From positions 62,001-126,000 of the forward strand of contig NZ_AQQY01000001.1 of the NCBI RefSeq assembly GCF_000671395.1: a DNA stretch of 64,000 bases, given 5' to 3'. The notes under the pieces were generated by a model. That model did not search any database. It had not been told where the DNA came from and worked only from the letters and a program-made list of their open reading frames with translations. Positions 8,113-38,424 of this stretch are shown here, piece by piece. Within the stretch, counting starts at the first letter, position 1, and each line of letters begins with the position of its first letter. The DNA comes from Actibacterium atlanticum. GTDB lineage: Bacteria; Pseudomonadota; Alphaproteobacteria; Rhodobacterales; Rhodobacteraceae. A program made the translations under genes and the position numbers.

Positions 8113-8712
8113 TCAGAAGTTGTGGATGTAAGACAGCCCAAAGACAATTGGGTCAATCTCGGCTTCGCCGATGAAGGCGCCATTCAGGTAAGCATCCGAG
8201 TTGATGTCGATCCAGCGCAGGTCAGCGCGCAGCGAACCTTTGTCGGAAATCGCCACATCCAGACCCGCGTGCAGGGCCAGCCCGACCGAGTCGCTCAGGG
8301 ACACGGTGCCCAAGGCCGAGCTTTCCTCGAAGAACGTGGTATAGTTGATGCCAGCGCCGACAAACGGGGTGAATTTGCTGTCATTGGCAAAGTGGTAGTT
8401 CACCGACAGGGTCGGGGGCAGGTGTTTGGTCGAAACCGTGCCGACACCGGTGACGGTCGCGGTGTGTTCAAACGGGGTCGCGGCCAGCAGCTCAATACCA
8501 ATATTGTCCCTTACGAAGTATTCGAAGGTGATGGTCGGGCGCACGTCATTGTCGATTGTCGTGGGCTGACCCGCCAGCAGGCCGTTGTTGCTTTTAGGGG
8601 CCACAACACCCAGACCCAGACCAACGGTCCAGTCCCCTGCGGATTGGGCTAGGGCAGGCAAAGCGGTGGTGCCAAGGGCGGCAGCCAGTGTCGCGGCGAG
8701 AATCTTCTTCAT
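8113..8712 (-). CDS. OmpW-family outer-membrane beta-barrel protein (second copy)
   Basis: A 199-residue outer-membrane protein with signal peptide MKKILAATLAAALGTTALPALAQ and the OmpW strands SAGDWTVGLGLGVVAPKSNNG, LPPTLSVNYHF and GINYTTF; the C-terminus ends LSYIHNF with the aromatic residue required for barrel assembly. The start at 8712 is set by the signal peptide and by GAGGAGA immediately upstream, although the frame stays open far upstream. It is clearly paralogous to the protein at 7276 (same order of strands, related N- and C-termini). A perfect TTGAC-N4-GTCAA palindrome lies 59 nt upstream and a clear terminator follows. Confidence 0.92.
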   Translation of the reverse strand: MKKILAATLAAALGTTALPALAQSAGDWTVGLGLGVVAPKSNNGLLAGQPTTIDNDVRPTITFEYFVRDNIGIELLAATPFEHTATVTGVGTVSTKHLPPTLSVNYHFANDSKFTPFVGAGINYTTFFEESSALGTVSLSDSVGLALHAGLDVAISDKGSLRADLRWIDINSDAYLNGAFIGEAEIDPIVFGLSYIHNF

Positions 8713-8914: not shown

Positions 8915-8954
8915 ATGCACACCCCATGCACATCAGATGCACAAGGCATGCATA
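8915..8954 (+). repeat. 11-bp-phased array of ATGCACA motifs (array A)
   Basis: Four heptamers start at 8915, 8926, 8937 and 8948 (three ATGCACA and one ATGCATA), separated by exactly 4 nt each, giving an 11-bp period. The array ends 25 nt before the nuclease start codon at 8980. A closely matching five-unit array occurs at 37122-37172. The regularity suggests a protein-binding array on one face of the helix, but I recognise no known regulator. Confidence 0.75.
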
Positions 8955-8979: not shown

Positions 8980-9429
8980 ATGAAACTGTCGCCAACCCTG
9001 TTTGCGTACGTGGTGGTGCTGGTGATGGCGCTGATCAAGTTCACCGATTGGTTCGTGGCCCATCACGATCTCAGCGCGCGGGGGTGCCTTGTGAGCTATG
9101 TCTACGACGGCGACACCGTGGCGCTGACCTGCGATGGGCAGGAACGCACCGCCCGGCTGGTGGGGTTTGACACGCCTGAAACCAAGTCTCCGGGCTGCGC
9201 TGCCGAAGCTGCCTTGGGCGCGCAGGCCACCACGCGGTTGCGCGCTCTGGTCGCGGCAGGCAGGGTGACGCTGGACGGACAGGGAAGCGACAAATACGGG
9301 CGGCTTTTGGTGCGCATGGCAGTCGCGGGCCAGGATGTGGCCGACACGCTGATCAACGAAGGGCTGGCTGTTGCCTATGACGGTGGCGCACGTCTTAATT
9401 GGTGTCGGCGCCTGCGCGCGGCGGGGTAG
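8980..9429 (+). CDS. Membrane-anchored thermonuclease (SNase-like)
   Basis: A 149-residue staphylococcal-nuclease-fold protein. After one N-terminal membrane segment (LFAYVVVLVMALI) the domain shows the calcium/catalytic motifs YDGDTVALTC, ARLVGFDTPET and DKYGRLLVRM, with LINEGLAVAYDGG near the end. It probably hydrolyses DNA or RNA in the periplasm while tethered to the inner membrane. The start at 8980 lacks a good ribosome site, but it places the membrane anchor at the N-terminus. The 11-bp-phased repeat array lies just upstream and may contain its promoter. No partner gene is evident. Confidence 0.87.
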   Translation: MKLSPTLFAYVVVLVMALIKFTDWFVAHHDLSARGCLVSYVYDGDTVALTCDGQERTARLVGFDTPETKSPGCAAEAALGAQATTRLRALVAAGRVTLDGQGSDKYGRLLVRMAVAGQDVADTLINEGLAVAYDGGARLNWCRRLRAAG

Positions 9430-35467: not shown

Positions 35468-37075
35468 TCAGACCTGCATTTCCTTTGTAGCAGAAAGGGT
35501 TAGCTCGGGATGGTCGCGCTCTACACGGTCAATATCCCACTGCAGGCGGGTCATGTAGACGACGTCCCCATCATTGTCATAGCTGATGTGCTGCTTGTTG
35601 GTGTCGGTGAATTTGTCGACATCCGCCTTGGCGCCGGTGACCCAGCGGGCCGAGGTGAATTGCGATTGTTCGAACCGCACGGGCAGGCCGTATTCCAGCT
35701 CGATCCGGCTGGCCAGAACTTCGAATTGTAGCGCGCCCACAACGCCCACAATAAAGCCCGAGCCCATCATCGGCTTAAAGACTTTGGCCGCGCCTTCTTC
35801 GGCGAATTGCATCAGGGCTTTTTCCAGATGCTTGGCTTTCATCGGATCCCCTGCGCGGCAGGTTTGCAGCAATTCGGGCGCGAAGGACGGAATACCAGTA
35901 ACACGCAAAGCTTCGCCTTCGGTTAACGTATCGCCGATGCGCAGCTGGCCGTGGTTGGGGATGCCGATGATATCGCCGGCCCATGCTTCCTCGGCCAGTT
36001 CGCGGTCCGAGGCCAGGAACATCACCGGGTTGGAAATGGCCATCGGTTTTTTGGACCGCACATGGGTCAGTTTCATGCCGCGTTTGAAGTGGCCTGAGGC
36101 CATGCGCACAAAGGCCACACGGTCGCGGTGCTTGGCGTCCATGTTGGCTTGCACCTTGAAAACAAAGCCAGAAACCTTCTTTTCCTCGGGCGCGATCTGG
36201 CGTGGCTCGGCGTTTTGGATTTGTGGCTGGGGGCCGTAGTTGGCGATGCCGTCCATCAGCTCACGCACGCCGAACGAATTGATCGCAGAGCCAAACCAGA
36301 TGGGTGTCATATGCCCTTCGAGCACCGCTTGTGGGTCCAGCTTGGGCAGCAGTTCACGGGCCATTTCGACCTCTTCGCGCAGCTGTTCCAGCAGGTGGTC
36401 GGGGATCAGCTCGTCCAGCTTGGGGTCGTCAAGCCCTTGAATCGAAACGCTTTCGGCCACGACGTTGCGGTCGGCGCGGTCCATCAGTTCCAGGCGGTCA
36501 TTGATCAGGTCGTAACAGCCCAGAAAATCGCGGCCAACGCCAATCGGCCAGCTGGCCGGGGTGACGTCGATGGCCAGATTTTCCTGAATTTCATCAATGA
36601 TTTCAAAGGTGTCGCGGCTTTCGCGGTCCATCTTGTTACAGAAGGTCAGGATCGGCAAATCGCGCAGGCGGCAGACCTCAAACAGCTTGCGGGTCTGGCT
36701 TTCCACGCCTTTCGCGCCGTCGATCACCATCACCGCCGCGTCCACCGCCGTGAGCGTACGATAGGTGTCTTCGCTAAAGTCGCTGTGGCCGGGTGTGTCG
36801 ACCAGATTGAAGCGGAAGCTATTGAAATCAAAGGACATTGCTGACGCGGAAACCGAGATGCCCCGGTCTTTCTCCATCTGCATGAAGTCCGAGCGCGTGC
36901 GCCGTGCCTCGCCCTTGGCGCGCACCTGACCAGCCATCTGAATGGCACCCCCGTAAAGGAGGAACTTTTCCGTCAGGGTCGTCTTACCGGCATCGGGGTG
37001 CGAGATGATCGCAAAGGTCCGGCGGCGCGCAATCTCGGGCGGCAAATCGGGGCGGTTTTGGGCGTTGTCCAACAT
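35468..37075 (-). CDS. prfC: Peptide chain release factor 3
   Basis: GTPase that recycles RF1/RF2 after termination, 535 residues. G motifs: SHPDAGKTTLTEKFL (P loop), RGISVSASAM with the switch region, DTPGHSDFSEDTYRTL, and FCNKMDRESRD; domain III contains the RF3-specific GVVGALQFEV. The start at 37075 (MLDNAQNRPDLPPEI) matches family length; the frame is open to 37138 but that part is the phased-repeat array. The phased motif array (37122-37172) lies 47-97 nt upstream and may overlap the promoter. Confidence 0.95.
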   Translation of the reverse strand: MLDNAQNRPDLPPEIARRRTFAIISHPDAGKTTLTEKFLLYGGAIQMAGQVRAKGEARRTRSDFMQMEKDRGISVSASAMSFDFNSFRFNLVDTPGHSDFSEDTYRTLTAVDAAVMVIDGAKGVESQTRKLFEVCRLRDLPILTFCNKMDRESRDTFEIIDEIQENLAIDVTPASWPIGVGRDFLGCYDLINDRLELMDRADRNVVAESVSIQGLDDPKLDELIPDHLLEQLREEVEMARELLPKLDPQAVLEGHMTPIWFGSAINSFGVRELMDGIANYGPQPQIQNAEPRQIAPEEKKVSGFVFKVQANMDAKHRDRVAFVRMASGHFKRGMKLTHVRSKKPMAISNPVMFLASDRELAEEAWAGDIIGIPNHGQLRIGDTLTEGEALRVTGIPSFAPELLQTCRAGDPMKAKHLEKALMQFAEEGAAKVFKPMMGSGFIVGVVGALQFEVLASRIELEYGLPVRFEQSQFTSARWVTGAKADVDKFTDTNKQHISYDNDGDVVYMTRLQWDIDRVERDHPELTLSATKEMQV

Positions 37076-37121: not shown

Positions 37122-37172
37122 ATACACAAGCGATGCACATCCCATGCACATCCGATGCATATCGCATGCGCA
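37122..37172 (+). repeat. 11-bp-phased array of ATGCACA motifs (array B)
   Basis: Five heptamers start at 37122, 37133, 37144, 37155 and 37166 (ATACACA, ATGCACA, ATGCACA, ATGCATA, ATGCGCA) with exactly 4-nt spacers. The central units and the spacers TCCC/TCCG resemble array A at 8915-8954. It lies between prfC and the pentapeptide-repeat gene, in the prfC leader. Confidence 0.8.
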
Positions 37173-37203: not shown

Positions 37204-37273
37204 GGTTCGCGCCCGACCCCGCCCCCCAGGGCGGGCGCGAAATCGCACCCACCCTCGGCGCCGGGCGCGAACC
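37204..37273. repeat. 12-bp perfect inverted repeat with extra half-site
   Basis: GGTTCGCGCCCG (37204-37215) is the exact reverse complement of CGGGCGCGAACC (37262-37273), and CGGGCGCGAA recurs at 37232-37241, so two alternative hairpins are possible. A separate hairpin CCGGATTGC/GCAATCCGG lies just before at 37189-37208. Its position after the stop of the pentapeptide gene fits a terminator, but the spacing and lack of Ts are unusual. Confidence 0.6.
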
Positions 37274-38424
37274 TATGTTCCGATAGAAGGTGGCAGGGTA
37301 GGCGGCGGTGGTGGAGGTGGCGCCTGAAACAAGCCATCAAACGCATTGCGCAGGCCGTTCAACGCGGATGCACCGTATTCGCCCAACATGATCTCTCCGC
37401 CCGATAGAATGGCCGCAGCGGTACCCGCGCCTAGGGTGGTGCCAAACGAGATCGCGAAAGCAGAGGTGCCTTTGCGCCACACGGAAGAGTCTGCGCCCTT
37501 CTTCTTGAGCTCTTCGATTTCCGCAGTCTGCTTTTCGATGGTCGCGCGCAACTTTTCTATCTTGGCGAGGGCGTCAGTGAGTTCCTTGGCGAGACTGTCT
37601 TCATCGGCGGAAGGGATCGCTTTGGCCAGTTGTTTGAACGTGTCCGAGACCTGTTCGACCAGCAGCAGGTCATCGGGTAGGTCGTTGCAGTTGTTGGCTT
37701 GGCGAAAGGTTTGGGTGGCGTAATCGAGCTGTGCCGCGAAGGTTTCGGCGGTGTTGGCGTTTTGGGCCGGGGCGGCGAGGATAACTTGCACTTGAGTTTT
37801 CAGGGCGGCGAGTTGACGGGCCGATGGGTTGGTGGCTGGATCGGGCATTGGTTCCAGCGGGTCGGGTAGCTGTGGGGCGGGCTCAATCCCCTCCGGGTCC
37901 GGCCAGTGGGGTGGGTGGGTCAGGCCGAAACGCAGGATAGTGCCGGTGTCTCCATTCATTGCATCGACTTGTGTCTGTGTAAGGCTAGGGAGTTCGAGCA
38001 GTTTGGTGTTTAAGTACTGGCCTGCACTAATGATCGTGCGGACGTTTACATTTTTGACGGATGCCTTTTGATCGTATTCTCTTCCGAAATCGGCGTTCCA
38101 GAGATCAGCGCCTCTGAGGTCAGCATGATTTAGCTCAGCTGATGCCAACTGTGACCTACGAAGGTTCGCCCTCCTCATATTTGAGCTTTGAAGGTTAGCC
38201 CCTCTCAGATCGGCGGCGACGAGATTGGTGTCGGATAGGATTGCTGCTCGTAAATTCGTTCTCCTTAAGTCAATGCTGGAGGTCCCAAGTAGTGGGCGCG
38301 TTTTCTTGTAGGCACGGCGAATATCAAACCCCGACAAATCCGGCACAAAATCGTCGGACTCGCGCCGCGCGTTCCACGCTTCGACGCCTTCCAGCAGCCA
38401 TTCCAGGTGTTGGGGGTTGCCCAT
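37273..38424 (-). CDS. Pentapeptide-repeat protein with coiled coil and C-terminal membrane segment
   Basis: A 383-residue protein with several parts. Residues about 49-115 are pentapeptide repeats of the A(D/N)LxG type (IDLRRTNLRAAILSDTNL, ADLRGANLQSSNMRRANL, AELNHADLRGADLWNADF), forming a right-handed quadrilateral helix. A Pro-rich linker follows, then a helical region with a heptad stretch near 275-310 (LAKIEKLRATIEKQTAEIEELKKK), then a glycine-rich hydrophobic segment (about 318-345) and a poly-Pro tail. Nothing indicates gyrase protection. Function unknown; could be a membrane-associated scaffold. Confidence 0.72.
   Translation of the reverse strand: MGNPQHLEWLLEGVEAWNARRESDDFVPDLSGFDIRRAYKKTRPLLGTSSIDLRRTNLRAAILSDTNLVAADLRGANLQSSNMRRANLRRSQLASAELNHADLRGADLWNADFGREYDQKASVKNVNVRTIISAGQYLNTKLLELPSLTQTQVDAMNGDTGTILRFGLTHPPHWPDPEGIEPAPQLPDPLEPMPDPATNPSARQLAALKTQVQVILAAPAQNANTAETFAAQLDYATQTFRQANNCNDLPDDLLLVEQVSDTFKQLAKAIPSADEDSLAKELTDALAKIEKLRATIEKQTAEIEELKKKGADSSVWRKGTSAFAISFGTTLGAGTAAAILSGGEIMLGEYGASALNGLRNAFDGLFQAPPPPPPPTLPPSIGT

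Follow-up and report, generated by a model that had tools for sequence, protein, structure and literature searches.

Arrays of the heptamer ATGCACA, repeated at intervals of 11 bp, are scattered between the genes of Actibacterium atlanticum and have the appearance of docking sites on the chromosome, not of a chance pattern or a conventional gene switch. The spelling of the heptamer seems, from sequence comparison, to shift between genera in step with a small protein carrying a ribbon-helix-helix (RHH) domain. The reading we favour on balance is that of an RHH chromosome-binding protein whose specificity and sites change together and whose polar complexes would serve the chromosome and not a regulon. 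Two arrays lie in the window (the whole 64,000-nucleotide stretch of DNA that was analysed), with the genes beside them given for context only, and the gene of the RHH protein lies outside it:

8915..8954, + strand: array 1, units at 8915, 8926, 8937 and 8948 (three times ATGCACA, then ATGCATA) in 11-bp phase
37122..37172, + strand: array 2, five units in 11-bp phase (37122 ATACACA, 37133 and 37144 ATGCACA, 37155 ATGCATA, 37166 ATGCGCA)
8980..9429, + strand: nuclease gene with an SNase domain, its called start 25 bp to the right of array 1
8113..8712, - strand: gene of the OmpW family, 202 bp to the left of array 1
35468..37075, - strand: release factor 3 gene (prfC), with its called start 46 bp to the left of array 2
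37273..38424, - strand: pentapeptide-repeat gene, the 3' end of which is 100 bp to the right of array 2
277220-277642 of contig C2 of the same genome (G000): RHH protein gene, 141 aa, with an array before the gene

The preliminary description had reported four and five heptamers in exact 11-bp phase, and their phase and positions hold, while the units are not all identical; ATGCACA is exact in three of the four units of array 1 and two of the five in array 2. When three units were scored against ATGCACA, the 11-bp spacing reached 21/21 at one array and 20/21 at the other; the best score at spacings of 9, 10, 12, 13, 20 and 21 bp was at most 16/21, and 22 bp merely re-finds the same arrays. The second array, described as a twin 28 kb away, is present but the two are no mere pair, since the genome contains at least 27 heptamer arrays in 11-bp phase, a lower bound obtained with a relaxed definition at places matched by a two-unit search. 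None of these lies within a predicted gene, the gene calls coming from a small predictor of our own with approximate gene borders. Allowing one mismatch at most, the two-unit pattern gave 78 matches in the genome and the reversed control none. An alignment on the last unit of 140 arrays from many genera, among the matches listed, gave the consensus ATRCACA-N4-ATGCACA-N4-ATGCACA-N4-ATGCAYA. In this alignment the spacers have mostly A/T after units 1-3 and mostly C/G before the units, a weak A-richness is seen 7-9 bp ahead of unit 1, and outside the units and these biases there is little conservation; the deviant spelling of the last unit recurs in several genera. The conserved phase together with the variable spacers, the RHH candidate and the covariation described below support the earlier proposal of a DNA-architecture element or cooperative protein binding, while the link of array 1 to the nuclease gene looks incidental. 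A DnaA box has the sequence TTATNCACA, and a DnaA-box array was rejected as an identity for the arrays, whose units are mostly preceded by C/G and not by TT.

The occurrence of ATGCACA arrays is nearly all-or-none per genome; among 394 genomes of the family Rhodobacteraceae 10 gave 12-80 matches, 6 gave 1 or 2 and 378 none, with no match in the reversed controls. The same-genus genome G001 has neither ATGCACA arrays nor a homologue of the RHH protein at E<=1e-10, a combination that fits the binder model. Absence from close relatives had been named beforehand as a sign of coincidence, and ATGCACA arrays are indeed lacking in G001 and most genomes of the family, but different heptamers form arrays in other genomes of the family. 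Scanning named genomes for the pattern gave at least 114 stretches, of which 99 were judged to be Rhodobacteraceae and 15 others were left out; the duplicate loci L051, L053 and L061 were removed before context counts, and G263, G331, G292, G329 and G364 were treated as equal to G062, G061, G065, G066 and G064, respectively, as their coordinates coincide. A separate three-unit ATGCACA element with 11-bp spacing and alike surroundings was seen in Ruminococcus (L098, L111, L144 and L165). In IMG/VR, 11-bp-spaced ATGCACA stands beside DnaA-box-like GTGGATAA repeats on viral or plasmid contigs (L178, L180, L181, L182 and L185), apparently unrelated; none of 29 viral loci, several with DnaA-box-like arrays, entered the analysis.

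A protein of about 140 aa was found to recur beside arrays in four genomes, with the array upstream, and it is very probably the array binder, judging from the sequence evidence that follows. Its RHH part matches the Pfam family PF14384 (BrnA_antitoxin) above the cut-off in both proteins tried (E 6.6e-14 and 3.5e-14), and conserved N-terminal and C-terminal parts extend beyond this match. Homologues at E<=1e-19 are present in 10/10 array-positive genomes and in 37/384 other genomes of the family (hypergeometric ~2e-10, with kinship ignored and the query drawn from an array genome). In a class-wide sample of 385 genomes 12 matches outside the family at E<=1e-12 are confined to the RHH part, and the weak family matches L438 and L439 gave no strand match by motif scan. 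A PDB sequence search with the RHH protein gave no match at E<=1 and NCBIfam holds no family for it; AlphaFold models of three sequences (mean pLDDT 54.9) were too weak and were left unused. Five neighbours of the RHH gene in G000 were scanned against Pfam, revealing a ketoacyl-ACP synthase III, an Xre/MbcA protein, a RES protein, a thymidine kinase and one unmatched protein, with no BrnT, ParM or relaxase among them. A BrnTA module was therefore rejected for the G000 protein, the BrnA domain being present and an adjacent BrnT absent in this one genome. Directly 3' of the RHH gene (L212, 4646-5756) the Xre/MbcA antitoxin-like and RES-domain genes form a likely toxin-antitoxin pair.

When analysing the upstream regions of 40 fetched homologues and G000, 41 in all, many genomes without ATGCACA arrays were seen to have three to four units of another heptamer at 11 bp, about 90-130 bp before the called RHH start, the spellings including GTATGG, GTCTGG, GTCTTGC, GTCTTCC, GTACAC, GTGCAC, GTTCATG and GTATGAC among others. 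In G000, G033, G115, G263, G292 and G329 the array starts 98-132 bp before the called RHH start. A motif-blind score of at least 12 at period 11 was reached by 25/41 upstream regions (6/10 array-positive and 19/31 others), the 19 being homologue-bearing genomes with few or no ATGCACA arrays and a clear 11-bp upstream array, mostly of another heptamer; at periods 8, 9, 10, 12, 13 and 14 the same score was reached by 0, 0, 0, 2, 0 and 0 of 41, and by 0/410 shuffles. An array stands ahead of the RHH gene in most array-bearing genomes, suggesting that this gene may be autoregulated. G331, G381, G094 and G364 have genome-wide arrays, yet their upstream array is absent or degenerate.

The upstream heptamers were then searched for genome-wide. 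Three-unit GTATGG arrays occur in 10/394 genomes with 2 to 125 matches, including 6/6 with a GTATGG operator and 0/10 ATGCACA genomes, the reversed control giving one match each in G136 and G334. Among the 41 genomes GTCTGG gave 24 matches in G206, 6 in G222 and 2 in G316, while the 2 in G256 and the 1 in G334 equal their controls and G236, classed by eye, gave none in the three-unit search. For GTRCAC, the palindromic units of which are counted on both strands, arrays were found as predicted among the same 41 in G362 (54), G217 (50), G415 (20) and G315 (11); G262, G012 and the irregular G239 gave none in the three-unit search despite an operator. ATGCAC-like operators in G078, G122 and G161 go with 0, 1 and 1 ATGCACA matches, and no GTATGG array was found in G175, whose GTATG-like units are spaced at 12 bp. 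From these misses and successes across three heptamers, the operator heptamer is a good but imperfect guide to the genome-wide arrays. Thalassovita taeanensis (G292) holds an unpredicted second set, with 26 GTGCAC matches on both strands beside 28 of ATGCACA, possibly pointing to a second binder, and G105 has eight GTATGG array matches and no RHH homologue at E<=1e-10; its RHH protein may be too diverged for detection.

The relation of protein to heptamer was assessed on a tree built without the strand columns. Position 1 of the RHH beta-strand is R in 21/21 CA-type and K in 9/9 TGG-type genomes (Fisher 7e-8), where CA-type is mostly CAC, with CAG or CAT in G228 and G137; 11/41 rows are unclassed, including G102 (R with GTATGAC), G331, G381, G094 and G364 are classed by their genome-wide arrays, and G236 and G239 by eye. 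The fewest changes needed for R/K are 5, and all 5 of the independent pairs are in accord (sign test p 0.0625). At position 5 a small residue is found in 13/13 genomes with A-first units and in 4/24 with G-first units (p 7e-7). N at position 3 is confined to three GTCTT-type genomes of the 41, and G412, added later, has GTCTT-type units without N. These patterns had been noticed before they were tabulated, and a written prediction was made afterwards on 16 named loci, to which four more were fetched. Of the readable rows, i.e. R/K rows with a recognisable array, 10/11 agree, with residues and arrays judged by eye: 9/9 of the named rows (K in G166, G147, G398 and G070; R in G287, G323, G162, G161 and G125), G398 having just one full TGG unit, and among the added rows G004 agrees and G395b misses. 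In G161 a position 5 A goes with A-first ATGCACA, as the rule has it. Nine rows were unscored: K with a weak array (G017, G297 and G206b), no array (G177, G311 and G242) or residues outside the code (G022, G412 and G152b).

To turn to gene context, 5/147 arrays (among the matches listed), 1/40 and 0/20 lie inside predicted genes in three array sets. Four of the five intragenic cases (L054 272-300, L118 888-927, L150 2023-2062 and L166 2692-2720, from four genomes) have alike surroundings. Among the matches listed, 128 arrays with both neighbours called are found at 43 convergent, 14 divergent, 51 antiparallel tandem and 20 parallel tandem junctions, the tandem classes being relative to the direction of the array and the count leaving aside those inside genes and 14 further arrays without a called neighbour. 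When compared with other junctions of the same loci, again among the matches listed, convergent junctions are enriched (36/102 arrays against 47/460) and divergent ones depleted (12/102 against 144/460).

The leading alternative is that of a transcription regulon, with the RHH protein as a classical repressor or activator and the arrays as its operators. It draws support from the six arrays placed 98-132 bp ahead of the RHH start and from others near start codons (28 bp for lpd, 46 bp for prfC), but the junction bias runs against it, and does so too in the other-heptamer sets where it was examined; of 142 arrays (among the matches listed), 97 have a stop codon as their closest gene end and 45 a start, and the array-flanking proteins inspected by eye are functionally unrelated, so that we hold a regulon to be unlikely. 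The boxes of PhoB/OmpR-type response regulators are 11-bp direct repeats of 7 bp + 4 bp. A PhoB-like promoter operator, considered from the 7+4 bp spacing, is disfavoured by the gene context; unlike with such boxes, the covariation points to the RHH protein and most arrays are away from promoters.

The spacing of the arrays was followed in Oceanicola sp. m2, where among the matches listed they extend from 5 kb to 4.25 Mb on a chromosome of 4.31 Mb. The 42 arrays listed in the first 2.99 Mb are at least 19.6 kb apart (0/20000 uniform draws) with a gap CV of 0.67 (p 0.004), and three further contigs show the same trend toward even spacing (CV p 0.10, 0.009 and 0.05). A role of the arrays for the chromosome is, in our judgement, somewhat the better supported view.

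The strand of the arrays agrees with the local GC skew in 117/132 (among the matches listed), 37/40 and 16/20 cases, 170/192 in total and covering four heptamer classes. When the skew left of the array was subtracted from that on its right, a step of +0.042 appeared at 1.5-4 kb (n=103, p 2e-10) and of +0.043 at 1.5-8 kb (n=62, p 2e-10; the 5 ATGCACA cases of the latter alone are flat), with no step at 0.1-1.5 kb (n=174, p 0.56). Restricting the comparison to third codon positions and to genes of like strand gave a difference of +0.089 (151 comparisons, p 5e-12). A contiguous stretch of 400 kb from Harenicola maris carries 8 arrays, all on one strand, and its skew profile looks saw-toothed. For flanks of 10 kb the step at the arrays is 0.078 (p 0.005 against random intergenic places, p 0.010 by rotation), for 15 kb 0.068 (0.002, 0.0025), for 5 kb 0.053 (0.04, 0.058) and for 20 kb a non-significant 0.025 (0.14, 0.052); array-free convergent junctions there have a mean of -0.014 (28 junctions, 10 kb). 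Replichore polarity, tried as a reading of the skew agreement, is unproven because the distance profile showed an added local step. The upward step resembles an initiation point rather than a barrier, and other mutational causes are possible. A directional process at the arrays is speculative, and we regard it as conceivable rather than probable.

The agreement with skew could also be expected if the arrays were polar replication-fork barriers or KOPS-like polar guides for a translocase, and the sequence GGGNAGGG does run with the arrays in two sets (204:79 and 126:52, the former from ATGCACA genomes). Being G-rich, GGGNAGGG is not independent of local skew, its bias is little or none in G206 (45:37) and G217 (27:27), and by eye the array strands form no two-replichore pattern along the 4.16-Mb contig of G206; for a barrier, including one of the Tus/Ter kind, we would expect lower skew to the right of the array, and the observed step is the opposite. 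We consider this explanation improbable, more so than a regulon. KOPS orienting FtsK were rejected as an identity for the arrays, the units of which differ from the GGGNAGGG-type octamer, with GGGNAGGG itself still strand-biased in ATGCACA genomes. TraY and NikA are of the relaxosome accessory protein type, and an RHH protein of this kind acting at arrays that resemble oriT and start strand displacement or the transfer of chromosomal DNA would suit the RHH domain (Pfam), the polar arrays and the one-sided skew step; with no relaxase among the scanned neighbours in G000 and no conserved nick-like sequence beside the arrays, it appears very unlikely.

Sites with different heptamers were compared by means of their neighbouring genes, the other-heptamer arrays coming from 7 genomes. 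Array-adjacent proteins are common to ATGCACA and other-heptamer sites (>=55% identity) in 23/119 cases against 28/696 for other genes of the same loci (p 5e-8). After the stop of gltD (TIGR01318) an array is found as ATGCACA in G000 and G263 and as GTACAC in G315 and G217, in the same orientation, and before lpd (TIGR01350) as ATGCACA in G000 and Thalassobius sp. I31.1, as GTCTGG in G206 and as GTATGG in G080. From these comparisons the sites seem to persist while their spelling changes in place. A dispersed mobile repeat of the REP or MITE kind, spread by copying, would account for the patchy occurrence and for the dozens of like copies found between genes, close to gene ends, but is hardly credible with so little common sequence outside the units, positions common to genera with differing heptamers, and the protein-heptamer covariation.

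According to the model of an RHH chromosome-binding protein, each heptamer would be contacted through the beta-strand and assembly over four units, one helical turn apart, would be cooperative and yield a polar complex, formed at dozens of intergenic places per chromosome. The protein would also regulate its own gene through the array ahead of it. The sites, lying mostly at gene 3' ends, more evenly spaced than at random in the best-sampled genome and kept in position across genera, would serve the chromosome and not a regulon, and would be re-spelled in place as the specificity of the protein changes. More speculatively, the complex might mark the start of, or orient, a directional strand-asymmetric process linked to replication or segregation and so produce the GC-skew step. 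The full picture, of docking sites tens of kb apart that launch a directional process shaping strand composition, with protein and sites re-spelled together in place between genera, as a chromosome-wide system resembling centromeres or origins and having a fast-evolving recognition code, is put forward tentatively, as the less probable part of the proposal.

A search of the open-access literature revealed no system resembling these arrays, and the nearest described proteins appear to be the RHH chromosome binders CdbA, SegB and MatP, plus ParR, by common domain type and style of site. As far as the cited texts describe it, CdbA of Myxococcus xanthus is an RHH nucleoid protein of moderate specificity with 569 ChIP peaks, ~35% of them intergenic, and a direct-repeat consensus with a four-bp gap, has little effect on transcription and has a role in chromosome organization and segregation (PMC7156744). 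The RHH domain, the many chromosomal sites and the four-bp-separated direct repeat are shared, whereas the present sites are tens of sharp multi-unit arrays, nearly all intergenic, strand-oriented and with a genus-dependent heptamer. In Sulfolobales the RHH protein SegB, with a ParA-type ATPase as partner, is described as binding ahead of the operon that encodes it and at tens of sites dispersed over the chromosome, its site being a 13-bp palindrome kept across genera and mostly intragenic (PMC12284271). An array before the own gene and scattered sites are found here too, but as intergenic arrays of varying heptamer. E. coli MatP is reported to have more than 20 chromosomal sites, with matS in the Ter region (PMC12756933). 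The central RHH with further N- and C-terminal parts, known here from sequence, is alike, while in contrast to terminus-only sites the arrays lie along the whole sampled chromosome. Each matS is a single palindrome. ParR of the ParR/parC plasmids is described as an RHH protein on phased direct repeats, 11-bp in R1, with specificity differing between families (PMC9426499). There it is one plasmid centromere with ParM; here the arrays are dispersed on the chromosome, with no ParM beside the G000 gene. BrnA (PF14384) shares the RHH domain, the differences being the conserved terminal parts and the lack of BrnT beside the G000 gene. Nothing found in the open-access literature search matches the re-spelling in place or the skew step.

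In numerous bacteria of one large family, a protein that Pfam labels as an antitoxin seems to bind DNA throughout the chromosome. With tens of sites per genome seemingly re-spelled together with the beta-strand, the evolution of DNA-binding specificity becomes testable by single substitutions, and should the skew step stem from fork direction or some other directional process, the copying or segregation of these chromosomes would become open to test as well.
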